From Pseudooceanicola aestuarii (GTDB lineage: Bacteria; Pseudomonadota; Alphaproteobacteria; Rhodobacterales; Rhodobacteraceae): 64,000 nucleotides of DNA. The position numbers and the translations under genes are program-made. The notes under the pieces are model-generated. The model was not told where the DNA came from. It saw only the letters and a program-made list of their open reading frames with translations, and ran no database searches. Location of the stretch: contig NZ_JAAFZC010000002.1 of the NCBI RefSeq assembly GCF_010614805.1, positions 62,001 to 126,000 of the forward strand, in the 5' to 3' direction. Shown one piece after another: positions 6,970 through 26,098 of the stretch (position 1 is the stretch's first letter; every line of letters begins with the position of its first letter).

Positions 6970-8009
6970 ACCGCGTCTACCTGGACCATAACGCCACCAT
7001 GCCGCTGCGCCCCGAGGCGCGGCAGGCGATGGTCGATGCGATGGATCTGGTGGGCAATCCCTCTTCTGTTCATGCGGAGGGACGGCTGGCCAAATCGCTG
7101 GTGGAGAAGGCCCGCGCCCAGGTCGCCAGCGCGCTTGGCGCCGATGGCGCCGACGTGGTCTTCACCTCCGGCGCGACCGAGGCGGCGGCCCTTGCCCATG
7201 CCGGGCGGGGGTTGCATGGCGCGGCGGTCGAACATGATGCCGTTTCCGCCTGGATTGTCGAGGATCTGCAAGTCACCCCCCAGGGAACCGTGCAGATTCC
7301 CGATGCGAATGTCGCCTCCGTGCAGGTCGCAAATAGCGAAACCGGAATCATCCAGTCCCTGCCGCAGGGGCTGGCCGTGTCGGATCTGACCCAGGCGTTC
7401 GGGAAAATCCCCATGGCCTTCAACTGGCTGGGCTGCGAGATGGCGCTGATCTCCGCGCACAAGCTGGGCGGGCCCAAGGGGATCGGCGCTGTGGTTCTGA
7501 AACGGGGCGCCGATCTGGCCGCGCAGCTGAAAGGTGGCGGCCAGGAGATGGGGCGCCGGGCCGGAACGGAAAACATCATCGGCATCGCCGGGTTCGGCGC
7601 CGCCGCCGCCGCCGCCGCCCGCGATCTGGATCAGGGCCGCTGGGACGAGGTCGGCGCCCTGCGCGACCGGTTGGAGGCCCGGCTACACGAGGCCGCCCCG
7701 GACCTGACGATCCCCGGCGCCGGAGTTCCGCGACTTCCCAATACGTCTTGCCTTGTCTCCCGGGGCTGGAAGGGGGAAACGCAGGTGATGCAGATGGACC
7801 TGGCCGGATTCGCGATCAGCGCCGGATCGGCCTGTTCCAGCGGCAAGGTGCGCGCCAGCCGGGTGCTGGGCGCCATGGGATTCGACGAAACCGACGCGGC
7901 CAGTGCGATCCGCGTCAGCCTGGGGCCGGAGACGCGGAGCGACGACGTGGATCGTTTCGCCCATGCCTGGTTGGCCCAGCGAAAGAAACACCGCGCCCGT
8001 GCGGCGTGA
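6966..8009 (+). CDS. Cysteine desulfurase (IscS/NifS-like, short)
   Basis: This 347-residue aminotransferase class V enzyme removes sulfur from cysteine for Fe-S cluster assembly. The start [18 protein letters not shown] uses a GTG at 6966 overlapping the iscR stop (GTGA). The PLP lysine is in [15 protein letters not shown], the PLP-contacting His in VEHDAV, and the catalytic loop Cys in [14 protein letters not shown]. It is shorter than IscS (about 400), with a compact middle region. A second desulfurase, SufS, closes the same operon, so the two may divide labour. Confidence 0.88.
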
Positions 8010-8031
8010 TCGCAGACCGAAAGGATTGGTC

Positions 8032-9569
<1,538 letters not shown>

Positions 9570-15787: not shown

Positions 15788-15829
<42 letters not shown>

Positions 15830-15925
15830 GGAAGTCGTTTCAGCAAAGCGCTTGAAGGAAAAGATAAAAAGAGGCACGATAGAAGAAGTCGCACAGTTTT
15901 CCGCACAGATACTGCGGGAATCAGG

Positions 15926-16002
15926 GCACCCATAGCTCAGCTGGATAGAGTGTCGCCCTCCGAAGGCGAAGGTCGTAGGTTCGAATCCTACTGGGTGCGC
16001 CA
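15926..16002 (+). tRNA. tRNA-Arg(CCG), complete, island-borne
   Basis: This 77-base cloverleaf has acceptor GCACCCA pairing with TGGGTGC, D arm GCTC...GAGT, anticodon arm TCGCC-CTCCGAA-GGCGA (anticodon CCG), T arm GTAGG-TTCGAAT-CCTAC and an encoded CCA end. All stems pair. It differs from the split chromosomal gene in the anticodon stem, variable region and T arm, keeping pairing by compensatory changes. It lies inside the island, 97 bases past attL, and is the only intact CGG-reading tRNA in the window. Confidence 0.95.
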
Positions 16003-16332: not shown

Positions 16333-16495
16333 AATCTCGCTCAGCGCTTTCGTAACCGGTGAACATCGCGGCGTTCTGGGTTTTTGAGCCTTGTTTAGCC
16401 GATTTTTGACATATTTCGGCTATCGTGAATTGCCGGTTACCAGATATTGTTCTACAAGTGAAAGAAACCAAAACAAAGAAAACAAGGGGGGCTCT

Positions 16496-17155
16496 ATGAC
16501 TGCGTCTGACGACCTGCGCTCATTTCTGAAAGGCGACCGGTTCGCGACTGTTATGGCAGACCCGCCTTGGCGTTTCCAGAACCGCACCGGTAAGATTGCT
16601 CCCGAACACAAGCGGCTCGCACGGTACCCTACGATGACCTTGGAAGAAATCTGTGAGCTTCCTGTTTCCGAACACTTGGAAGACAGAGCGCATTGCTATC
16701 TCTGGGTTCCCAATGCCTTGTTGCCGGAAGGTCTTAAGGTTCTGGATGCCTGGGGCTTTCAATATAAATCTAATATCGTTTGGGAGAAGATCCGCAAAGA
16801 TGGCGGCCCTGATGGCCGTGGCGTGGGCTTCTATTTCCGCAATGTTACGGAAATCCTCCTCTTTGGAACGCGGGGGAAAGATGTGCGCACACTTCAACCT
16901 GGCCGGAGTCAGGTCAATTTCATTGAAGCTGAAGAGCCGGACAGTGACCTATTGAAAACTCGTAAACGAGAGCACAGCCGTAAGCCCGATGAACAATACG
17001 ACATTATCGAGTCGTGCTCTTGGGGGCCGTACTTGGAGTTGTTTGGTCGTGGCAAGCGTAAAGGCTGGACGGTTTGGGGAAATCAAGCCGAAGATGATTA
17101 CAAGCCAACTTGGAAAACCTACGCATATAATTCTTCGGCTCCTGCCGCCGAGTAG
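16496..17155 (+). CDS. MT-A70 family DNA N6-adenine methyltransferase
   Basis: This 219-residue SAM-dependent methyltransferase has the catalytic DPPW tetrad at residues 22-25 (MADPPWRFQNR) and the MT-A70 features CYLWVPNALLPEGLKVLDAW, NIVWEKIRKDGG and RNVTEILLFGTRG, then REHSRKPDEQYDIIESCS near the C-terminus. It probably methylates adenine in DNA. The start at 16496 has AAGGGGGG upstream; longer starts are not supported. It converges on the nuclease gene at 17156 with no base between the stops, suggesting a modification partner; a phage-type orphan methylase is the alternative. Confidence 0.88.
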   Translation: MTASDDLRSFLKGDRFATVMADPPWRFQNRTGKIAPEHKRLARYPTMTLEEICELPVSEHLEDRAHCYLWVPNALLPEGLKVLDAWGFQYKSNIVWEKIRKDGGPDGRGVGFYFRNVTEILLFGTRGKDVRTLQPGRSQVNFIEAEEPDSDLLKTRKREHSRKPDEQYDIIESCSWGPYLELFGRGKRKGWTVWGNQAEDDYKPTWKTYAYNSSAPAAE

Positions 17156-17992
17156 TCATTCCTTAACAACGGACGCCGGTAGGCCGATTAGCAAAAGCGG
17201 GCACGGGTTGCCTACACCCCTATCTATTCGGTCCTTGAGCTTGCTCCAGTGCGTTGTTGCTTGACCAAATTTATCGTTCACAAATTGCTTGGCAAACGCC
17301 TCAGAGAAGGGCGTTTGTCTGTCGAGTAGCTTCTGAACAGCTTCTCTTTGACGCTTGGTTCTGTCCTTCATCCCGAAGGCTTCAACCATCTCGCTCTCAT
17401 CTATGAAACCGTGCTTTTCAATACAACGCTGTACAATGCCAAGCATACCTTCTTGAAGACTCGCTCCTCGCGTAATCAAGACACCCACCGATATTGCTGA
17501 TTGAGCGTGGAGCCTTTGAAAGTTTTCCAGGTCTCTGTCAAAGAATGGGTCTTTGTTGTTCCATTCGATTTCAAGGGCAATGTTTCCTGTTTCCGACCAT
17601 CTGACATGGTCAATCTCGTGGCTGTTAGAGACGGTTTCTTTGCCATCGACTATCAGGCGAAAATCGAAATTATGTTTGGGCCATTCCACTTCGTAGAGCC
17701 GACGCCGTAGACGCTGCGTAGAAGGTGCCTCACCGCCCCCCGAGCCGATGAGCTCTTCGGCTGGGATCTCTACTTCCAGAAGCGCTTTTTCAAGTTCGCC
17801 CGATATTTCAGGGAAATCGACGGACAAAATCGCTCCGGCGTGGTTGCGGATAGCAATATCAAATCCTTTATCGGTTAAGCTTTCGAACACTCCTGCCCCC
17901 AACTTTGTCAGTACCAGGGAATGTTCAAGCGCAAGCTGTGTGCGTGGCGTCGATTCCCTCTTGGAAAGCAGTCTGCAACGGGCTGCGGGCAA
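17156..17992 (-). CDS. BglII/BstYI-like type II restriction endonuclease
   Basis: This protein of about 278 residues carries HEIDHVRWSE followed by IALEIEWNNKDPFFDRDL and a later SAISVGVLITRG strand, the pattern of the BglII/BstYI nuclease family, with acidic residues D128, E141 and E143 as candidate metal ligands. It should cut DNA at sites protected by the abutting MT-A70 methyltransferase. The start shown is TTG at 17992; the frame is open further upstream without ATG, so the N-terminus is uncertain. The target sequence cannot be read from the protein. Confidence 0.7.
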   Translation of the reverse strand: MPAARCRLLSKRESTPRTQLALEHSLVLTKLGAGVFESLTDKGFDIAIRNHAGAILSVDFPEISGELEKALLEVEIPAEELIGSGGGEAPSTQRLRRRLYEVEWPKHNFDFRLIVDGKETVSNSHEIDHVRWSETGNIALEIEWNNKDPFFDRDLENFQRLHAQSAISVGVLITRGASLQEGMLGIVQRCIEKHGFIDESEMVEAFGMKDRTKRQREAVQKLLDRQTPFSEAFAKQFVNDKFGQATTHWSKLKDRIDRGVGNPCPLLLIGLPASVVKE

Positions 17993-18173: not shown

Positions 18174-18455
18174 CTATGAGCATACTTTTTTGTGAGTTTT
18201 GAAATACCCCAGGTATCTCATATCTTCATAAACAAGCCGCCCGCCTTCCGGCGCCAACGGCGGGTAATAATAAACCCCGTGCGTATCGAACCTAATACAC
18301 AATTGACCGAACTCCGTCCGGTCCTCTGGATTGTGTTTTGGGATTGTTCCTTGGCACCCCGTCGGGTCCGGCGCTACGCGAACCCAGGAGCACAACGCAG
18401 AAGCGGGCGACGCAAGCGTCGCCCCTACTGCTGTGGCTATTAGGAACTTGCGCAC
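18174..18455 (-). CDS. Small exported protein (93 aa)
   Basis: The protein has a clear signal peptide (MRKFLIATAVGATLASPASA, cleavage about residue 20) and a 73-residue mature part with four cysteines, prolines and tyrosines (THGVYYYPPLAPEGGRL). It is probably periplasmic or surface-located. It overlaps the pilin-like gene at 18440-18766 by 16 bases and is translated after it, so the two probably work together. No family recognised. Confidence 0.65.
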   Translation of the reverse strand: MRKFLIATAVGATLASPASALCSWVRVAPDPTGCQGTIPKHNPEDRTEFGQLCIRFDTHGVYYYPPLAPEGGRLVYEDMRYLGYFKTHKKVCS

Positions 18456-18766
18456 GAGTCCAATCCCCCTTTGTCGCCGGTTATGAAACTTAGGAGAAGG
18501 TCAGCCATCGCAACAATGAAAAGGCCACCCCCCAAAGCAATCAGATGGGCGAACTTGAAACGACCCAAGAACGCAGAAACTGCGATAACCACAAGGCCGA
18601 TGGCCCCAATTACGTAAGCAGCACCAAAAACAAACTCTTGGATTGCGTTAAGTTTGGAGCAAGATTTTTTAAAGATTTCATTCTCATCTGCGAATGCGGG
18701 ACCAGCAACAAAAAGAACTATCCCTATCAGCAATATTTGAATGATGTGTATGTGTTTGAGTGTCAT
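18440..18766 (-). CDS. TrbC/VirB2-like pilin protein
   Basis: This 108-residue protein has a signal peptide ending GPAFA and two hydrophobic helices (about residues 48-67 and 72-95) joined by a short basic loop, GRFKFAH. That is the layout of VirB2/TrbC conjugative pilins, which are inserted in the inner membrane before assembly. None of the other type IV secretion genes is present in the island, so it is an orphan. Transcription diverges from the Flp-like gene across a palindrome. Confidence 0.65.
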   Translation of the reverse strand: MTLKHIHIIQILLIGIVLFVAGPAFADENEIFKKSCSKLNAIQEFVFGAAYVIGAIGLVVIAVSAFLGRFKFAHLIALGGGLFIVAMADLLLSFITGDKGGLDSCASS

Positions 18767-18797
18767 TGTAACCTCCTGCTTTTCTTTGACAGTAGTC

Positions 18798-18837
18798 AGA
18801 TAGAGAATTTTGGGACGCGTCCCAAAGTTCTCTATCT
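18798..18837. repeat. 40-bp near-perfect palindrome between two divergent pilin-like genes
   Basis: The two 20-base halves meet at ACGCGT (centre 18817/18818) and are complementary except for one position. It sits 32 bases upstream of the VirB2-like start and 30 bases upstream of the Flp-like start. It could be a shared operator or a cruciform; a terminator is unlikely because no T-run follows. Confidence 0.9.
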
Positions 18838-18866
18838 CCTGGTCAGAACAAACAGGAGGATTTCAA

Positions 18867-19583
18867 ATGTTCACGATTTCAAAACTTAAATCATCTACGC
18901 GGGCGGCTGCCTTTGTTGAGTATGTTGCTTTGCTCGGGCTGGTCGGCATTATCACGATAACAGCCGTTGTCGAGTTCGGTGGGGAAGCGGCTGCGGCATT
19001 TGATGGGGCGGAAGCAGTCCTCGCAACTCAAGCCGCAGGTACTGTCGGAACGGAGGCCGATACGATACCAATGGCAACTCAGGGCCTGGAGCCTATCGAG
19101 GCACTCGCTCTCACCCCATACGCGCCGGTTACTTCAAGCCGCGACCCAGGCCGTTTCTATGAGGAATTTGTTGTTGTCCGTGTCCTTGGCGGTGGTGGGC
19201 GCTATTGGCACACTTGGGCTTTCGCAGAGGGCTACAATCCTGGTGAAGTTGTCACTTCCGCCCCTTCTGGTTTCATCGCGGAGCCAATCTCTTCGGCGTC
19301 ACTTCCCTCAGCACTTTGCGCTGAGGCGTCAATGAACCTGGGGACTGTTATGGACCCGAATGAAACATTCTTCCCGGGCGTTTCGCCTTCCCTGACTGAT
19401 GAGGACCAAATCCAGGTGGAAGAGTTTGTTGTCCTGGACAGAACGTCCGATGAAACAGGCCTTAACACGACAGATGGATACAATACCGTTGATGCGGTTG
19501 CTTCCGCTTCATACACGCCGTGGAATGGCCCTGGGGAGAGCGTCCAAGCAATTTACGCCTTTACTTGTTCTCGACCGCTCTGA
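18867..19583 (+). CDS. Flp-pilin-like N-terminus with a large C-terminal domain
   Basis: The 238-residue product starts MFTISKLKSSTRAAAFVEYV. The basic leader, small residues, then FVEYVALLGLVGIITITAVV with Glu early in the helix resemble type IVb (Flp/Tad) pilins. Flp pilins are about 50-60 residues; here some 185 acidic and serine/threonine-rich residues follow, with two cysteines. The start has a strong AGGAGGA at 18854-18860. No prepilin peptidase or Tad ATPase is nearby. It may be a surface-exposed minor pilin or adhesin. Confidence 0.6.
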   Translation: MFTISKLKSSTRAAAFVEYVALLGLVGIITITAVVEFGGEAAAAFDGAEAVLATQAAGTVGTEADTIPMATQGLEPIEALALTPYAPVTSSRDPGRFYEEFVVVRVLGGGGRYWHTWAFAEGYNPGEVVTSAPSGFIAEPISSASLPSALCAEASMNLGTVMDPNETFFPGVSPSLTDEDQIQVEEFVVLDRTSDETGLNTTDGYNTVDAVASASYTPWNGPGESVQAIYAFTCSRPL

Positions 19584-19607
19584 CTCCTGTGGGGTGCGAG
19601 AGAAGCA

Positions 19608-19636
19608 ACCCTCGGCCTTTCAGGTCGGGGGTTTTT
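19608..19636 (+). terminator. Terminator of the Flp-like gene
   Basis: Stem ACCCTCGGCC (19608-19617) with GGTCGGGGGT (19623-19632) including two G-T pairs, followed by TTTTT. It overlaps the stop of the convergent relaxase gene. Confidence 0.8.
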
Positions 19637-20702
19637 ATCTGCCGCCGTTACTGGCGGCATTTCGCGTAGTGTCCTCTATGTGTTGCGAAGGAAGACGAGA
19701 AGCGGCCAGCCCTGAAGTCTGACCGTCTTTGTTGAAGCGAGGAATTCGGGGGAAGGTCCGCATCTGGCTTCCGAATTTGTCGGTGTTTGCGGGCGTCTTG
19801 TTTGCTTCTTCTTTTACTTCCGAACGATTGAGGAAGCCAAGTTTTGACCGCCAAGAGTCTAAAAACTTGGGGAGCCTCCAACGCTTCGGAATGGCGCGAA
19901 TTTGCTTCGCCTTGCTGCCGCCCTGGTCGCGGATGTTCTGGGCGATTATTTCGCTGTTTGACTCGATCCGCTCGTTAGCGGCCACGCTGAACTCATGCCC
20001 ACGTTCAAGCTTATCTTGAACTTCGACGCCCTCGTGAAGCTGAGGCGCTCTATCAATTCCTTGGTCTTTTAGGCTGCGGTGCTCTGCCTTTTTCCGTCCG
20101 TGCTTCTCGGCGACTTGGTTTACAACTCCCGCCATCCGCTCACGCCAGTCTTGGCGGCTCCCGCCTTCGTTCAATCTGAGTTGGTCACGTTGTCGAACTC
20201 GCTTGGCTTCTGGGTTTCTGGCTATCGCTGCCTCCCTGGTTTCAAGGCCATCAACTGCCCACCAATGAAGGTGTTTGTTCCCCTTCTTGTCGTGATGGAT
20301 AGACGCAACCACAAGGGCTTGGCTATCGCCTGCCATGTCCGCCACTAAGGTTTCGGCAATCTCTCGTTGCTCTTCCGTCGATGCGTCATTCGGAAGTGAG
20401 ATATGGCCGGTGTCGCAAAGTCGAATACCGTTTTTCTCGGTGTGTTTCTTGGCGCGAGCGGCGAGGGCGGCATAGGCCTTGCTTTTGACTGCTTGTTTGT
20501 CGCCCGTGAGAGATTGGCCTTCAGTGTGGCATATTACATCTTCATCGCCACAGGCGGCGTCTCGCGTCTGGTAGCGAAAGCGAGCCTTGGCGGTGGCTAT
20601 GGCTTCAGTCAAGGAAAGGACTTTGCGAGCTTTTGGACTGGTGCTGATATGTTTGATGTTGATGCTCGCCGCGTATGAAGCCGCCATATGTGATTTCTCC
20701 AA
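19635..20702 (-). CDS. MobA/MobL-family relaxase
   Basis: This 355-residue relaxase should nick one DNA strand at the element's oriT and pilot it into a recipient. It shows the MobA/MobL features: an alpha/beta N-terminus, a metal-binding histidine cluster in SIHHDKKGNKHLHWWAVDGL, then SRQDWRERMAGVVNQVAEKH and the signature EHRSLKDQGIDRAPQLHEG. The usual catalytic Tyr near the start is not obvious. It lacks the primase or helicase domain of larger MobA proteins. The start may be 20702 or the Met at 20687. The oriT-like sequence lies 69 bases upstream. Confidence 0.82.
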   Translation of the reverse strand: MEKSHMAASYAASINIKHISTSPKARKVLSLTEAIATAKARFRYQTRDAACGDEDVICHTEGQSLTGDKQAVKSKAYAALAARAKKHTEKNGIRLCDTGHISLPNDASTEEQREIAETLVADMAGDSQALVVASIHHDKKGNKHLHWWAVDGLETREAAIARNPEAKRVRQRDQLRLNEGGSRQDWRERMAGVVNQVAEKHGRKKAEHRSLKDQGIDRAPQLHEGVEVQDKLERGHEFSVAANERIESNSEIIAQNIRDQGGSKAKQIRAIPKRWRLPKFLDSWRSKLGFLNRSEVKEEANKTPANTDKFGSQMRTFPRIPRFNKDGQTSGLAASRLPSQHIEDTTRNAASNGGR

Positions 20703-20770
20703 TGCGGCCCTGAGCCGCGTTCCCCGCTGGAAGCGTCTCGATGAAATCGCTCCGCAGCGCGGCCCCCGGA

Positions 20771-20818
20771 GGGCGCACGCTTAAGACCCGCAGGGGCTTA
20801 AGCTTCCAAGTGCGCCCT
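20771..20818. other. Putative oriT, MOBQ (RSF1010/pSC101-like) type
   Basis: Nested inverted repeats GGGCGCAC (20771-20778)/GTGCGCCC (20810-20817) and GCTTAAG (20779-20785)/CTTAAGC (20797-20803) lead into AAGTGCGCCCT (20808-20818), the nick-region core known for RSF1010-type origins. It is directly upstream of the MobA/MobL relaxase, the usual place. Confidence 0.75.
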
Positions 20819-20864
20819 CAATCGGCGGGGCCTGGTAGGCAAATAGGAAAAAATCACACACATC

Positions 20865-20887
20865 AAAAAACCCGCCACAAGGGCGGG
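20865..20887 (-). terminator. Terminator of the rep operon
   Basis: Stem CCCGCC (20871-20876) with GGCGGG (20882-20887) followed on the minus strand by six T residues. It lies 26 bases past the stop of the gene at 20913-21230 and separates that operon from oriT and the relaxase. Confidence 0.8.
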
Positions 20888-20912
20888 TCAGTTTGTTTCA
20901 GTTTGTCAAAAC

Positions 20913-21230
20913 CTAACGGGTTAGGTCGTCGCCAACTCTTAGCATTTTCTGGGCGGCTGTGACGCCCTTTTGTAGAGCGGCATCGGTCTTTCTGCCGCGC
21001 TCCTTCTTCTTCTTTTCCTTCTCATTTTTCTTCTTATTATTGTTGGCTTCTTCTTCGCGCTTTTTGAATTCAGCGTCTCTTGCTTCCATCCGCTCGTGCC
21101 AGCTTTGGCGCTTCGCCGTCAGTCCCGGTTGAGTCTGCTGGACCGTGTCTTTTTTTTTGCCAGACACGAACAACCTTCTGAATGTGTTGAGCGCCTCCGA
21201 CGGTGCTTCTGTAGCCTTCATATTTTCCAT
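20913..21230 (-). CDS. Lysine-rich coiled-coil protein (105 aa)
   Basis: The product is very basic and charged, with a central run of Lys/Glu/Asn (residues about 52-80) predicted as coiled coil, flanked by FRRLFVSGKKKDTVQQ and AALQKGVTAAQKMLRVGDD. No family recognised; a DNA-binding or relaxosome accessory role would fit the position next to oriT, but this is inference. It overlaps the upstream gene by 13 bases and is last in the rep operon. Confidence 0.6.
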   Translation of the reverse strand: MENMKATEAPSEALNTFRRLFVSGKKKDTVQQTQPGLTAKRQSWHERMEARDAEFKKREEEANNNKKKNEKEKKKKERGRKTDAALQKGVTAAQKMLRVGDDLTR

Positions 21231-21652
21231 CCCTTAGCTGTAGCCGGGTTCTTTCTTTGCCCCGTCGATATATTGAAAATCTGTTGCTTTAAATTTCTTG
21301 CCGCAGCCTCTGCGACCCAATCTGGCACTGCGTCCAACCGCCCAAAGCGTTCGCGGTACTCACTATTTCCGCTCAACCAATCCAAACGATGAAACAACTC
21401 GTCCCGCGCTGCTATCAGCTTAGCCCTCATCCTCTTCTCGTAGTTCGTTTGGGCTTGAAACACGTTTGCCTCTATCGGTGTCTCAGGGCCACCCTCAAGC
21501 AGGAATTCTAAATATTTCAAAGCACAAGTGCGGACCCAGTCGGGGCAGTCAGCCAAATCTCCAAGTTCTGGCGCGTCTGTTGTCTGGGCAAGAAAACAAA
21601 CGCCACGCTTTAACTCGTCGTCATTCCACATTTTCAAGTCCCGCAGCATCAC
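21218..21652 (-). CDS. Protein of unknown function (144 aa)
   Basis: The protein begins MMLRDLKMWNDDELKRGVCF and is soluble and helical. Two similar tryptophan-containing segments occur, CPDWVRTCALKYLEFLL and VPDWVAEAAARNLKQQI, suggesting an internal duplication of a short helical unit. It overlaps its upstream neighbour by 4 bases and its downstream neighbour by 13, so it is firmly within the rep operon. I do not recognise a family. Confidence 0.62.
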   Translation of the reverse strand: MMLRDLKMWNDDELKRGVCFLAQTTDAPELGDLADCPDWVRTCALKYLEFLLEGGPETPIEANVFQAQTNYEKRMRAKLIAARDELFHRLDWLSGNSEYRERFGRLDAVPDWVAEAAARNLKQQIFNISTGQRKNPATAKGWKI

Positions 21653-21831
21653 AAACCCTCTATCGGTAGTATCTGTTGATTGGGATTTGACTTCGACCTT
21701 GGGGCAGGAAGAGAAGCGGCAAAAGCCTTTACTTCGTTGGCGTGCTCGGCGGCTACACGCACCCGTATTTCACGCCACCCCGCGGCCTTCCAGCGGCGGC
21801 GTTGTTCTCTCTTCTTTTCGGCGTTGTCCAT
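21649..21831 (-). CDS. Small basic protein (60 aa)
   Basis: Starting at ATG 21831 (MDNAEKKREQRRRWKAAGWR) the product is 60 residues, with an Arg/Lys-rich N-terminus and a strand-like WREIRVRV followed by the helix EHANEVKAFAASL, reminiscent of small ribbon-helix-helix copy-control or mobilization proteins. A longer start at 21885 would run through the hairpin that holds the SD and is less likely. It is cotranscribed with the rep-like gene upstream. Confidence 0.6.
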   Translation of the reverse strand: MDNAEKKREQRRRWKAAGWREIRVRVAAEHANEVKAFAASLPAPRSKSNPNQQILPIEGL

Positions 21832-21836
21832 TTGCG

Positions 21837-21860
21837 TCTCCTTCGTGTTTACGAAGGAGA
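21837..21860 (-). promoter_or_regulatory. Hairpin burying the SD of the 60-aa gene
   Basis: A perfect 9-bp stem TCTCCTTCG (21837-21845)/CGAAGGAGA (21852-21860) includes, on the minus strand, the only good SD (AAGGAGA), five bases before the ATG at 21831. The fold would block ribosome entry. Confidence 0.6.
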
Positions 21861-21908
21861 TGGGGAAAGAAGACGCGTACCCCAAAAAAAGTTTGTGTTG
21901 TCATTGGC

Positions 21909-22526
21909 TCAGGTCTGCTCGGTCGGGTCTTTTTCATGCTCATCGTCTGCGACCTGAAGCATCTTTTCAACGTCTTCATAAAGTTCGAAATCTTCCTCTT
22001 TGACGGTGCCTTCTTCCTTTCCTACGAGGGTCGCCAGCCGCTTTTTGACAAACGGGTTCTCAGACTTGGAGACAAGTGTTTTTGTGTTGAATGCCGCGTG
22101 GCTTTTGGCTTCGCTGAAGCTCTTCCAAACTTCTCCTGGGTTCAAACAATACACATTGGCTGTGCCCAGTTTAAGAATGACGATTGCGCCTTCTTTTTCG
22201 AGCGTCTTTGTGTGTCTGGAAATGGTCTTTTCTGAGTATTTCAAGGCTTCGGCAAGTGTCCTACGGCTCGCGCATACTGCTCCATCTGGACCAATGTTTT
22301 CAGCCAGAAAAACATACACACGCGCAGCGGATGGGCTGATGTTCAAAAGGCTTTGAATGCGATACCAACCGGCAGGATAAACCTGAGTAAAGTCTTTGTT
22401 GAGCCTGCGTTTCTTTTGCTCTTTCTCTTTGTCCTTTTCAGTTTTCTGCTGCTTCAAAAACTCGTTGGCAATGTCTTGCCCTACGACTTTTTCAATTTTC
22501 TTAATCTGGTCTAAATTGAGTATCAT
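21909..22526 (-). CDS. RepL-like replication initiator / winged-helix protein
   Basis: This 205-residue protein has a charged N-terminal helix (KQQKTEKDKEKEQKKRRLNK), then GWYRIQSLLNISPSAARVYV and a winged helix: CASRRTLAEALKYSEKTISR, TLEKEGAIVILKLGTANVYC, LNPGEVWKS. The wing and the LNPxxVW motif resemble the RepL family of plasmid replication proteins. It heads the minus-strand operon of four genes and faces an array of GGGACA repeats at 22607-22660. A plasmid-type transcription regulator is the alternative. Confidence 0.65.
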   Translation of the reverse strand: MILNLDQIKKIEKVVGQDIANEFLKQQKTEKDKEKEQKKRRLNKDFTQVYPAGWYRIQSLLNISPSAARVYVFLAENIGPDGAVCASRRTLAEALKYSEKTISRHTKTLEKEGAIVILKLGTANVYCLNPGEVWKSFSEAKSHAAFNTKTLVSKSENPFVKKRLATLVGKEEGTVKEEDFELYEDVEKMLQVADDEHEKDPTEQT

Positions 22527-22845: not shown

Positions 22846-23151
22846 ATGAAAGCCAAGCTCGCATACAGTCCCCAAGAAGTCGCAGAACTTCTTAACGTTC
22901 CATACGGAACGGTGTGCGCTGAAATTCGCTCGGGCCAGTTGGTTGCCAGACGCGTAGGCAAGTCTTACCGTATTCACCATCAAGCCCTTGATAAATATTT
23001 GTTATGCCCAGACCAAGAAAGCCAGCGAGACTCTACTGTCGTCCCGATACGGGCGAGTGGGTCATCCGTGACGGTGGCAAAGATACAAGAACAGGACATC
23101 GCGGCACAGGCGGCCGTGAAGCTGCTGAAAATGCGCTCGCACGCTATCTAG
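22846..23151 (+). CDS. Excisionase-like helix-turn-helix protein
   Basis: The first 52 residues, with YSPQEVAELLNVPYGTVCAE and GQLVARRVGKSYRIHHQALD, form a MerR-like helix-turn-helix of the excisionase family, which would bend attachment-site DNA and steer recombination. The remaining 49 residues are read in a second frame over the integrase N-terminus and look less constrained. The integrase start lies 147 bases before its stop. It diverges from the rep-like gene. Confidence 0.8.
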   Translation: MKAKLAYSPQEVAELLNVPYGTVCAEIRSGQLVARRVGKSYRIHHQALDKYLLCPDQESQRDSTVVPIRASGSSVTVAKIQEQDIAAQAAVKLLKMRSHAI

Positions 23152-24065
23152 CACAACGCATTGACGTGCCAAGTACTCCGATGGCTCCGGATGATGTAAG
23201 TGTGTCGGTTGTTCTTGCGCGGTATATTGAAGACTTAAGAGCGGATATGGCCGCGCCTGAACGGCAAGCCTACGCTGTGAAGCAATTGGTGTTGTTTTGG
23301 TCGGGTAAAAGCTGCGGCCAGGTCAGCGAAAAGACCTGCCAAGCATATGTTAGAACACGGCAAACGGCCAGCACGGCTCGCCGTGAACTTTCGGTGTTAC
23401 GCGCGGCGCTAAATAAAGCTCATCGGGACCGTCTGCTTGTGGGGGCTCCCGCCGTTTGGTTGCCACCAACAGGCAAGCCCAGGACTGAATGGCTGACGCG
23501 CGACGAGTTCGCCCGGCTTCTTTGGGCGTTGTGGCGAAATAAGCGAAGCCGGCACGCTGCTCGCCTCGCGCTTTGTCAGTTTTATACAGGGAGCCGTCCG
23601 AGGACTGTTGCTAAGTCAACTTGGGAGCGGCGCACCGACGGACCTTGGGTAGACCTGGCACGGGGCATTTGGTGGCGTGCAGGGGAGGACGAAGCGCAAA
23701 CGGTCAAAGCACGGCGACCCCACGCCATACCAGGCCGGTTGTTGGCTCATCTCGAGCGTTGGAAACGGCTTCACGATGGGCGCTTCATCGTTGAGCACCC
23801 AAGACATCCGGGCAAGCCCGTTTTAGACATTGGCAAGGCTCTTGAAGGTGCAGCAAAGCGGGCAGGTGTAAAACGTATAACCCCCCATACTCTAAAGCAC
23901 ACAGCGATTACCCTTGCGATCCAGAGCGGAATGTCAGCCGAAGACGCTGCCGACTATTTCAGCACCAGCATTGAAACCATACAATCAAACTATTGGCATC
24001 ACAGCCCCGAACACCAAAAGAGGGCTGTTACTCGAATGCTATCCCTCGGCAAGAAAGTCGGTTGA
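23004..24065 (+). CDS. int: Tyrosine recombinase (integrase) of the island
   Basis: This 353-residue integrase has a SAM-like N-terminal arm-binding domain (about 60-145) and the catalytic domain with YTGSRPRTV (R198), PHTLKHT (H295, K298) and SNYWHHSP (Y330). The second conserved arginine of the HxxR box is lysine here. It should catalyse integration into tRNA-Arg and excision with the upstream factor. No good SD precedes ATG 23004, so translation is probably coupled to the overlapping xis gene. It lies about 2 kb from attR. Confidence 0.92.
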   Translation: MPRPRKPARLYCRPDTGEWVIRDGGKDTRTGHRGTGGREAAENALARYLAQRIDVPSTPMAPDDVSVSVVLARYIEDLRADMAAPERQAYAVKQLVLFWSGKSCGQVSEKTCQAYVRTRQTASTARRELSVLRAALNKAHRDRLLVGAPAVWLPPTGKPRTEWLTRDEFARLLWALWRNKRSRHAARLALCQFYTGSRPRTVAKSTWERRTDGPWVDLARGIWWRAGEDEAQTVKARRPHAIPGRLLAHLERWKRLHDGRFIVEHPRHPGKPVLDIGKALEGAAKRAGVKRITPHTLKHTAITLAIQSGMSAEDAADYFSTSIETIQSNYWHHSPEHQKRAVTRMLSLGKKVG

Positions 24066-24092: not shown

Positions 24093-25292
24093 CTAGAAGA
24101 GCGTTTGCTGTTTTGACTGCTTGTCAGACAAACCAGACTCGTCCAGCAAGCGATTGTAGAGTGTGGAGACACCTGAACTACCTGGCAAAAAGTGCTCTCG
24201 CGTCAACTCTTCATCGGGAATGCTGATACCTCTAAAGACTTCGTCACAAGCGTCACGGGTGAGTATTTCGCCTTTGTCACACTTGGACAAATAGACAGGG
24301 CGCAAAAATTTCATCAGGGCCCCGTACCCAGTGGTTCGGTTAAGAACCGTACCTGCTGGCGCATCATCCCAGAGCTTTGGCCATCTCGCCTTAACAGCGT
24401 TAAAGTAGTTGGTAAGACAAAGGAAAACTGCCGCATCGTTGTCATCGTCATAGAACGGCTGGAATATATGGCGCGTCCAAGCGTTTACTGGCCTCTTAGA
24501 CGAGAAAATGCCTTTGTAGCGCTTATTGCGGTCACCTTCGGGATCTGGAGTGATGTAATCAAGAAGCGGTTTGACAACAGTTGCCTGCGCAAGTGTTTGA
24601 ATATGCCCCTTACCAGCTTCCGCCTTTCCCAGTCGTTTTATCTTATCGTGGAACGGCCCTTCTTCGTCGTGGTTCATTGCCAAAATGATTTCGTGCGCAA
24701 ACTTCATGGGGCCGCGTTCTTCGTAAAACGAAGCAAGGTCCACAACCAGGCTGGGATTCACCTTAGTTTGAGCTTGGTTGACACGAGCGAAAATCTCAGC
24801 CTTGTCGGCCTCTGACGCGCCTATAAAAATGGAAACATTAACGTCGAACAACTTGCCATCTTTCAGCCCTTCCAGGCCGGCGACCCTGTGTTGGCCGTCG
24901 ATAATGAAAGCGATACGGTCAAGCGGCGTGTAGTCCTCGTCGCCTTCGTTGCCAAAGGGCTTCAAGGTCATTTTCTGTATCGCTGACCCTTCATCGGCAT
25001 TTTCGCAGTACGGCTCAAAATCGACACACTCTGGGGGTACTGAGATAATTACAGATGTTGGAAAAGTTGCGTACTCAAGGTTCACATATCGTTTAATTTC
25101 GTTAATGCGACCTTCGTTGCGCTCACGCTGAATGCCTGCGATTTTCTTTTGAGTTCCTTCAAGGAAGGCGCGGATTTCAACATAGGAAATAGCGCGTAGC
25201 TGCCTCGACTCGATGCTCCCAACGTAAAATTCTCCGATAGGCTGGGAAACCTTTGAAACTACGATTTTGACGGGCTCTAGTTCATTTTCCAA
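24093..25292 (-). CDS. DGQHR-domain protein (DndB-like)
   Basis: This 399-residue protein carries DGQHR at residues 132-136 in IAFIIDGQHRVAGLEGL, followed by AEIFARVNQAQTKVNPSLV, both hallmarks of the DGQHR/DndB superfamily. DndB regulates DNA phosphorothioation genes; other family members occur in phage-defence islands with unknown chemistry. No dndA, C, D or E genes are here. It overlaps its upstream membrane-protein gene by 11 bases and ends 27 bases from the convergent integrase. The likely role is defence-related, by inference. Confidence 0.82.
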   Translation of the reverse strand: MENELEPVKIVVSKVSQPIGEFYVGSIESRQLRAISYVEIRAFLEGTQKKIAGIQRERNEGRINEIKRYVNLEYATFPTSVIISVPPECVDFEPYCENADEGSAIQKMTLKPFGNEGDEDYTPLDRIAFIIDGQHRVAGLEGLKDGKLFDVNVSIFIGASEADKAEIFARVNQAQTKVNPSLVVDLASFYEERGPMKFAHEIILAMNHDEEGPFHDKIKRLGKAEAGKGHIQTLAQATVVKPLLDYITPDPEGDRNKRYKGIFSSKRPVNAWTRHIFQPFYDDDNDAAVFLCLTNYFNAVKARWPKLWDDAPAGTVLNRTTGYGALMKFLRPVYLSKCDKGEILTRDACDEVFRGISIPDEELTREHFLPGSSGVSTLYNRLLDESGLSDKQSKQQTLF

Positions 25293-25782
25293 TTTGTGCC
25301 GCCTTCCTTGGCATATCGGTAATCCGATTGTTTTCCGCTGCGCCCGCCTCTTCGCTGCTGGGGATTGTTGGTTTCAGTGCCAGTATCAAAAACCAGACCA
25401 AGTGAAGCCCGAAGTAGAACTGCCAAAGCAAGGATACGTTTGTAGAGGTTAAAACCTCTTTCTCAAAACCAGGATTTATCCCGATTATGAACGCGGTTGC
25501 CACAAGCGGAATGATGAAACACAGGTAAAGGACGATAGAGACAATCTCATTTAGTTTCCCGTGCTTCCGCAGTGCTAGAAACATCACACCAGATATGGAA
25601 AGCACAGATAGGCCGATTTGGCCTTCGTTGAAGTACCTGCTAAACGAAGTAGTTACTTTGCCTTCTTCGATTTGTCTGGAGAGAATGAAAGCGATTACAA
25701 AAACTATCCCAAGCGTCCCAATGAGTGAGGCGAGAACTTCTGTAAGAGCTTCTTTCCAATTTTTTTGTAACGAATCCAACAT
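25282..25782 (-). CDS. Four-helix membrane protein, partner of the DGQHR gene
   Basis: This 166-residue protein has hydrophobic helices at about residues 13-34, 57-74, 80-103 and 119-139, with a charged loop (SRQIEEGKVTTSFSRYFNEG) after the first and a polar tail rich in Glu, Ala and Asn. No enzyme motif is visible. It is first in a two-gene operon with the DGQHR protein, and the 11-base overlap implies coupled translation. A membrane effector or anchor would fit, but this is inference. Confidence 0.7.
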   Translation of the reverse strand: MLDSLQKNWKEALTEVLASLIGTLGIVFVIAFILSRQIEEGKVTTSFSRYFNEGQIGLSVLSISGVMFLALRKHGKLNEIVSIVLYLCFIIPLVATAFIIGINPGFEKEVLTSTNVSLLWQFYFGLHLVWFLILALKPTIPSSEEAGAAENNRITDMPRKAAQIGK

Positions 25783-26040
25783 TGAAAGCCTTAAAGTTTC
25801 TTCGGCCTAGAGTTGAGCGACAGAGGCTTTGGTGTCAAGCGGGAGCGTTGATCTGGCCTTCTTAAGGTTCGACGAAAGAGCGGTTGTAAATCGCCTGTTT
25901 GTTTGGGTTGGTTGGTTTGTAAACTCGAGCGAGTGTCGTGAAGCAACTGGGCGCACAGAAATGCCCAGAAACGCACGAAAACAACGGCAAATATCCGAGT
26001 GATGGCTGTAGGTTTGTTAATAAAAACAATAGCATAAAGT
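25783..26040. other. Gap between the cassette and attR
   Basis: This 258-base stretch must hold the promoter of the minus-strand cassette and any integrase arm sites next to attR. It is AT-rich near attR (25990-26040). Open frames exist but none has an SD and sensible composition. Confidence 0.4.
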
Positions 26041-26063
26041 ATAGAGCGCTGCCCTCCGAAGGC
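26041..26063 (+). repeat. Right attachment site core (attR)
   Basis: Twenty-three bases identical to 15807-15829; the tRNA-Arg 3' half continues directly from it. Confidence 0.88.
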
Positions 26064-26098
26064 AGAGGCCAAAGGTTCGAATCCTTTCGGGTGCGCCA
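26041..26098 (+). pseudogene. 3' half of the chromosomal tRNA-Arg(CCG)
   Basis: From the anticodon stem onwards this reads as tRNA: variable region, T arm AAAGG-TTCGAAT-CCTTT, acceptor CGGGTGC, discriminator G and CCA ending at 26098. Upstream of 26041 the sequence (ATAGCATAAAGT) is island DNA, so no 5' acceptor or D arm is present. The partner piece is at 15788-15829. Confidence 0.9.

Follow-up and report, generated by a model that had tools for sequence, protein, structure and literature searches.

The 64,000-nucleotide stretch of Pseudooceanicola aestuarii DNA analysed here (contig NZ_JAAFZC010000002.1, positions 62,001 to 126,000; hereafter the window) carries, within an element integrated at a tRNA-Arg gene, two overlapping genes for a small membrane protein and a protein with the DGQHR domain of DndB. 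Judged from sequence comparison, a DGQHR protein of this kind and the multi-helix membrane partner encoded directly upstream of it are a fixed unit found near DNA-modification genes, and we suggest that they belong to an undescribed anti-phage system. The pair consists of:

24093..25292, minus strand: DGQHR/DndB-domain protein of 399 amino acids, TTG start, matching TIGR03187 and Pfam DndB; proposed switch that binds nucleoside triphosphates (NTP) and senses DNA
25282..25782, minus strand: four-helix membrane protein of 166 amino acids, ATG start, recognised by hydropathy; proposed effector or membrane sensor

The gene pair and its conservation

The initial annotation had described two genes overlapping by 11 bases beside an integrase gene and the right attachment (att) repeat, attR, and we recover both open reading frames (ORFs) with that overlap, and attR at 26041-26098. 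Its reading of a clear DGQHR motif and of FARVNQAQTKVNP also holds, the motif being IDGQHRV. The protein scores 175 bits against TIGR03187 (cut-off 58.85) and 36 bits against Pfam DndB PF14072 (cut-off 29.1), which places it in the DGQHR domain family; its scores against DGQHR_dnd_1 TIGR04172 (150.2 bits, cut-off 450) and DpdB NF041060 (76.9 bits, cut-off 300) are below threshold. The residues of GxQR, DGQHR and FxxxNxxQ are invariant across the DGQHR proteins of a 39-row alignment, and in an AlphaFold2 model (mean pLDDT 86.2, pTM 0.78), the C-terminal half of which is helical, the DGQHR motif sits at a strand-helix turn. Pfam matches at E up to 1, under filters that discard most matches above 0.1, were to DndB and DUF6551 only, with no DUF4747, and neither a nuclease nor a HEPN domain was recognised by Pfam or profile comparison. 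The protein has a weak match (E 2e-4) to the ParB-like family of PHROGs and, by sequence search, no credible homologue in the PDB. A ParB/Srx fold, predicted for the GmrS/DUF262 domain that the DGQHR domain resembles (excerpt of PMC4619093), is a candidate fold for it.

Hydropathy, the sole basis of our helix counts, gives the membrane protein four helices at a threshold of 1.3 (residues 16-34, 53-71, 83-101 and 118-136) and three at 1.6, in keeping with the four-helix protein first annotated; among 42 membrane proteins of the pairs described below, the counts at 1.3 are four in 30, three in nine and more in three. It drew no NCBIfam or PADLOC match and only weak Pfam and family matches below cut-off. 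When 39 of the membrane proteins were searched, Pfam at E up to 1 gave weak matches scattered over 51 families, of which the first 25 were viewed, and PADLOC gave three weak families, two of them RT-associated SLATT, with no more than two members each. Identity to the window protein is 6-17% in 38 aligned rows, bar three (84, 43 and 21%), and there is a weak GEL-like motif at helix 2 (G, then E, D or Q, then L, F, I, M, V or A occurs anywhere in 28 of 39). The aligned DGQHR partners keep 20-45% identity to the window DGQHR protein, the two closest aside, and the membrane protein is the less conserved member in all 16 pairs compared. On these scans the membrane protein is without a family in the libraries used, and for its partner they offer no more than the domain itself and a resemblance to DndB and DpdB that stays below cut-off.

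Relatives were gathered from plasmids, genome contigs, viral contigs and draws of whole genomes, and a membrane partner was scored where an ORF of 140-300 amino acids with at least two helices at threshold 1.6 lay directly upstream, at a gap of -160 to +100. Far from being rarely together, as the initial annotation had held conceivable, the two genes occur side by side in 42 of the 43 loci of one branch of DGQHR proteins (43 of 44 rows before L110, a duplicate of L005, was removed), the lone exception being L063, where the DGQHR ORF starts at the contig end; the 43 loci include near-copies and fall into 36 clusters at 85% identity. Under the same rule none of 30 other DGQHR genes has the partner, and the base rate of such an upstream membrane ORF is 3 of 239 other ORFs of 300-450 amino acids in the loci. 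Of 20 further outgroup rows one comes near the rule (L146, with a 310-amino-acid, five-helix ORF 72 bases upstream that is too long for it), and L125, outside the clade, has a 202-amino-acid, two-helix ORF at a gap of 200, outside the gap rule. A 39-row profile built from the branch scores its members at 342 bits or more, and no other DGQHR protein of the first set exceeds 149. The paired branch is one clade (99/87), L063 included, with two subclades: a dnd-type one of six rows (100/100) and a methyl-type one of 37 rows (100/99) that holds the window.

Comparison of the window with the 92%-identical pair in L005 gives ratios of nonsynonymous to synonymous substitution (dN/dS) of 0.03 for the DGQHR gene and 0.12 for the membrane gene, indicating purifying selection on both. 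DNA similarity between the two spans 24093-25840, that is, the pair and 58 bases before it, and the methyltransferase gene is similar as well (71% over 610 positions). Because of the low dN/dS, the extent of this similarity and the layout shared by 42 of 43 loci, we take the pair not to be chance ORFs.

The paired branch is rare. In genome draws that include their centre genome, it occurs in at least 5 of 398 genomes at the level of phylum (G000, G349, G051, G259 and G276, the weak match G293 being unclassified) and in at least 6 of 394 at the level of family (G000, G1053, G1054, G797, G992 and G798). A class draw around G276 had it in 1 of 369 genomes, the centre itself; in the other class draw, 24 of 385 genomes had a DGQHR match, and the paired branch was seen in G000 and in none of 16 other genomes with flanks, seven of the 24 (G401, G436, G545, G645, G656, G688 and G689) being unclassified. 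Flanks were likewise not taken for G293, nor for G1064, G979 and G987, which are fragments, some with stops. The counts leave aside DGQHR ORFs shorter than 250 amino acids (the L007 fragment and the 93-amino-acid second piece of L074), L077, which had no ORF match, the TIGR03187 loci without an ORF match to the A1 profile (L120, L121, L123, L124 and L135) and the E. coli loci L138 and L139; they draw on 5 of the 19 plasmid records of the first plasmid search (H1, H5, H6, H10 and H13), and 39 of a later one were left unopened. Single-protein queries found few relatives or none, and alignment-based scans were therefore needed: the window DGQHR protein retrieved three loci in genome contigs, one of them the fragment L007, and none in viral contigs or phages, and the membrane protein none in plasmids. 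A second viral scan enlarged the outgroup and left the paired clade as it was. The closest named relatives of the window DGQHR gene belong to Rhodobacteraceae/Paracoccaceae (the host genome is 4.2 Mb). We also note that L007 (8001-8426), 52% identical to the window protein and preceded by transposase-like sequence, is a decayed relative in an uncultured Erythrobacter.

Modification partners and the host element

The initial annotation had presented the pair as a stand-alone two-gene cassette, and this part of it must be given up: the pair nearly always travels with a DNA-modification gene, be it a Dam-type, MT-A70 or N6_N4 methyltransferase or dnd. A methyltransferase, mostly of Dam type, lies within 8 kb in 36 of the 37 methyl-type loci (all 28 from viral contigs and eight of the nine others) and within 300 bp in 30; in 16 of these 30 it immediately precedes the pair on the same strand, and in 14 it immediately follows it on the opposite one. 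All nine Dam-like genes tested score above the TIGR00571 dam cut-off. Eight of the 37 methyl-type loci carry a recognisable restriction enzyme, of BglII type in the window, L001, L003, L073 and L076, of HNH_2 type in L005 and L112, and DpnII (338 bits) in L071 (789-6978); since the remaining 29 were searched with BglII and HNH references only, other nucleases may have been missed there. BglII cuts AGATCT, BstYI RGATCY and DpnII GATC, and Dam methylates GATC. These sites suggest a shared GATC core for the modification and restriction partners, the MT-A70 and HNH systems apart. The operon of L071 reads, in order, D12 methyltransferase, DpnII, DUF6996/6997, a 90-amino-acid ORF, membrane protein, DGQHR protein and N6_N4 methyltransferase.

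The window element, of about 10 kb, extends from tRNA-Arg(CCG) (15926-16002) to an att copy of the 3' part of that gene (26041-26098). Its features outside the pair are:

15945..16002, plus strand: left att repeat, the 3' part of tRNA-Arg(CCG) 15926-16002 (sequence repeat)
16391..17155, plus strand: MT-A70 family DNA adenine methyltransferase (Pfam MT-A70, 98.7 bits; PADLOC MTase_II, 293 bits)
17156..17992, minus strand: BglII/BstYI-type restriction endonuclease (Pfam Endonuc-BglII, 80.9 bits)
22846..23151, plus strand: small HTH_17 protein, excisionase-like, the role being suggested by position (Pfam HTH_17, 40.7 bits)
23004..24065, plus strand: tyrosine integrase of the element (Pfam Phage_integrase, E 8e-5, 22.9 bits, below the cut-off of 27.1)
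26041..26098, plus strand: right att repeat (attR), 58 nucleotides, 81% identical to the tRNA-Arg 3' end (sequence repeat)

The adjoining methyltransferase and endonuclease genes, absent from the initial annotation, constitute a type II restriction-modification system of BglII/BstYI type. A block of the endonuclease, EWNNKDPFFDRDL, is common to four relatives, and the enzyme is the sole PF09195 match in the host genome, in which no Dam-family match was found. The restriction-modification genes occupy the left end of the element and the pair its right end. If the element is excised by att recombination, the four cargo genes would become neighbours in the circle, with the membrane gene and the methyltransferase ORF about 0.7 kb apart (704 bases by coordinates) around the joined att site. 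In agreement with the initial annotation, which saw no dnd partners, no dnd gene was found among the ten window proteins scanned, nor within 8 kb by the DndC and DndD references of L004, dndE having had no search with a model of its own; the ten include no dpd gene either. The backbone at 18440-22526 encodes a TrbC/VirB2-like pilin protein, a MobA/MobL relaxase and a RepL-like protein, and the element looks mobilizable from these, a full transfer apparatus not being among the genes scanned. A tRNA-Arg-like stretch at 15800-15838, some 140 bases before the intact tRNA-Arg (138 from start to start), is possibly the remnant of another insertion there.

Relatives in dnd loci, prophages and the long DGQHR class

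The initial annotation had also considered that DGQHR genes might normally sit in complete dnd or dpd clusters. This is true of the sister subclade, where dndC and dndD lie within 8 kb in five of six loci (in the sixth, L104, they are replaced by a helicase bearing a weak PLD-type domain), and untrue of the window's own subclade, with its methyltransferase in 36 of 37. E. coli 55989 has the pair (L139, 12083-13762) within the series dptF, dptG, dptH, a four-helix protein annotated as "accessory gene regulator B family", the DGQHR gene in two annotated pieces, dndE, dndD, dndC and dndB; matching DNA occurs in 123 of 5426 complete E. coli genomes, 122 of which match across 80% or more of the query. 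An excerpt of a 2015 survey reports that "1 to 3 hypothetical proteins" often lie between dpt and dnd (PMC4373003), and the pair could explain genes left "hypothetical" at this place in E. coli islands.

Other members of the paired branch lie in prophage-like surroundings. In L062, with DNA polymerase, primase and tail genes in the neighbourhood, a CI-like repressor gene (phrog_4) is followed 47 bp behind by the membrane gene and then by the DGQHR gene, all on one strand, and Dam is convergent. A CI-like gene, an identity checked against PHROGs in L062 only, lies upstream on the same strand in seven loci, and in L062, L068, L069 and L070 it is the gene immediately before the membrane gene, 24-74 bp away. 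L061 and L075 have theirs downstream, on the other strand.

A second class of DGQHR proteins is long, at 678-811 amino acids in 14 loci (among them L080 7293-9617, L106 7025-9310 and L159 7296-9575). The membrane partner was found in none of the 14 under the upstream rule. In 13 of them the same strand carries a Dam-like ORF or fragment that overlaps the DGQHR gene or lies at most 275 bp from it: before it in seven, after it in five (L125, L126, L160, L162 and L163) and on both sides in L161; no Dam-like ORF was detected in L154. The window-type protein aligns to residues 226-596 of the long class (profile comparison, 99.8% probability). The part N-terminal to this has a PD-(D/E)xK-like pattern (D...ECK) in 10 of 13 rows and weak nuclease matches in two of four proteins scanned with Pfam, and the part C-terminal to it matches HEPN_Swt1 weakly in two of four, with an R...H pattern in some rows. 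Proteins that fuse ParB to a Swt1-like HEPN domain were described in 2013 (PMC3710099). These comparisons suggest that the DGQHR domain serves as a switch for more than one kind of effector, nuclease plus HEPN-like domains in one class and a membrane protein in the other. The long class together with Dam is also a candidate two-gene system of its own.

A proposed modification-guarded membrane module and its relation to known systems

On balance we hold it somewhat probable that the pair and its modification partner form a modification-guarded, membrane-coupled anti-phage module, carried here as cargo of a mobilizable element integrated at tRNA-Arg. In the proposed pathway the methyltransferase would mark resident DNA; the DGQHR protein, a relative of NTP-binding DndB, would bind incoming or replicating DNA without the mark or with a phage-made structure, and would then signal to the membrane protein, a relay like that proposed for RexA and RexB. 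The membrane protein would be the effector, depolarising or arresting the cell as RexB may do, or alternatively would keep the complex at the membrane and so block incoming DNA, in the manner of Kiwa. In window-type loci the restriction enzyme would act first, backed by the pair as a second barrier to DNA that evades cleavage.

We base this proposal on the fixed pair (42 of 43 against 0 of 30, with a base rate of 3 in 239), its single clade, the methyltransferase in 36 of 37 loci and the restriction enzymes nearby. It draws also on the dnd-linked sister subclade, the E. coli 55989 pair, the placement behind CI-like repressors, and the precedents of Gordonia phage CarolAnn and of a DndB-like protein that binds ATP and GTP (excerpt of PMC12704722). 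The lower conservation of the membrane partner in 16 of 16 pairs adds to these, and Dam beside the nuclease-DGQHR-HEPN-like fusions suggests that effectors are exchangeable. Possible nuclease or NTP-consuming effector roles are discussed in PMC10853773, the excerpt of which does not mention a membrane partner. From the restriction enzymes, the dnd genes and the prophage repressor neighbourhoods we infer a role in defence, so that the initial annotation's compact defence module with a membrane effector is favoured by context, apart from its self-sufficiency.

Several observations weigh against the module we propose. The window methyltransferase is 6.9 kb from the pair on the linear map, and in 14 loci the nearest methyltransferase is convergent on the other strand and hence not in the same operon as the pair. 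Dam is common in viral contigs, and 28 of the 37 methyl-type loci come from such contigs. In L006 (Amaricoccus macauensis, 7490-9161), a 66%-identical pair has flagellar genes on one side and ABC-transporter genes on the other, and no methyltransferase was recognised within 8 kb of it. DndB, finally, is described as a transcriptional repressor, and that of Salmonella represses dndCDE via two palindromes (excerpt of PMC4507180).

It is conceivable that the membrane protein instead senses attachment or DNA ejection and that the DGQHR protein coats incoming DNA, as is reported of KwaA and KwaB, the methyltransferase only sparing resident DNA. This is the closest rival, if in our view an unlikely one. 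It shares the two-gene layout with a small membrane protein, and Kiwa is described as a membrane sensor with a DNA-binding partner that does not cut DNA (excerpt of PMC12904381). However, neither the window pair nor the 39 membrane proteins drew a PADLOC match under the name Kiwa, and the position behind CI-like repressors fits rexAB as well. PADLOC 2.0.0 presumably contains Kiwa models, and we know of no modification gene or methyltransferase partner of Kiwa.

The repressor activity of Salmonella DndB, together with the methyltransferase within 8 kb in 36 of 37 loci, would also suit a regulator, in which an NTP-modulated DGQHR repressor keeps the modification enzyme at a safe level and the membrane protein anchors or controls it. 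We think this rather improbable, since the 30 DGQHR genes outside the clade have no membrane partner, the DndB operator palindrome occurs in the window about as often as expected by chance (8 matches at up to one mismatch, 7.8 expected), L006 has the pair with no recognised modification gene, and a plain anchor would not be expected to be the less conserved member in 16 of 16 pairs. Regulation of the DndB kind, though possible, would by itself leave the membrane gene, its lower conservation and L006 unexplained. Still more improbable is an addiction module, in which the pair would kill the cell upon loss of the methyltransferase and so stabilise the mobile element rather than fight phages. Restriction-modification systems can act in this way, and the pair is found on plasmids, on viral contigs and on the integrated element described here; but a restriction enzyme able to do so is already recognised in 8 of the 37 methyl-type loci, and the L006 pair has no recognised methyltransferase within 8 kb. 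That the genes are functionally unlinked hitch-hikers, all three kinds being common cargo that occurs on mobile elements, is scarcely credible given an upstream membrane gene in 42 of 43 loci against 3 of 239, a monophyletic paired branch and a methyltransferase within 300 bp in 30 of 37.

Beyond the modification-guarded module itself, we offer tentatively a wider reading, that of an undescribed family of defence systems built on a DndB/ParB-type NTP switch. The switch would read whether DNA is modified, in this branch probably by methylation of adenine at GATC-type sites, and would trigger one of several interchangeable effectors: for the compact class the four-helix membrane protein, and for the long, Dam-linked class a built-in PD-(D/E)xK nuclease together with a HEPN-like domain. 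Prophages would express the compact class as part of the lysogeny operon, their own Dam serving as antidote on induction. The methyltransferase, the four-helix membrane protein and the DGQHR switch make a testable three-gene candidate and, if the proposal is true, the DGQHR domain would gain a role beyond the transcriptional control of phosphorothioation.

The literature searched, on DGQHR, DndB, ParB-like and DpnII/GATC themes, with few subscription papers or preprints covered and the "DndI" of Dnd papers not compared, held no description of the pair or of the triple. With DndB (DGQHR_dnd_1) the window protein shares the DGQHR domain, and the dnd-linked sister subclade has a membrane partner too; it differs in its score below the TIGR04172 cut-off, in an element with no dnd genes found, and in having methyltransferases as partners. 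DpdB of the Dpd 7-deazaguanine system likewise shares the domain, whereas the window protein is below the cut-off for it and no dpd gene is among the ten proteins scanned; to our knowledge DpdB has no membrane partner. Type II restriction-modification comes close in the six loci with BglII- or DpnII-like enzymes nearby (the window, L001, L003, L071, L073 and L076), and we know of no described type II system of which the pair is part. Kiwa has in common a membrane protein and a DNA-binding partner, with the differences given above.

The layout of a four-helix membrane protein whose gene overlaps or adjoins that of a soluble partner is shared with lambda RexA/RexB and with gp44/gp43 of CarolAnn, the latter also similar in size. 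CarolAnn gp43 (178 amino acids, four transmembrane helices) and gp44 (370 amino acids) are cotranscribed with the repressor and act in RexAB-like phage defence (excerpt of PMC6426606). The lambda pair, too, is co-expressed with a repressor, and the window-type pair stands directly behind a CI-like gene in L062, L068, L069 and L070. RexA and gp44 match DUF4747, however, which the window DGQHR protein does not at E up to 1, and the same excerpt does not mention a methyltransferase partner for them. The long, Dam-linked DGQHR class appears to be of the kind of the ParB-HEPN fusions with Swt1-like HEPN domains (e.g., Saro_3948), where the compact class has a separate membrane protein in place of the nuclease and HEPN domains. 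Should the DGQHR domain prove to read DNA modification and to work with interchangeable effectors, a single switch domain would connect restriction-modification, Dnd and RexAB-like exclusion.

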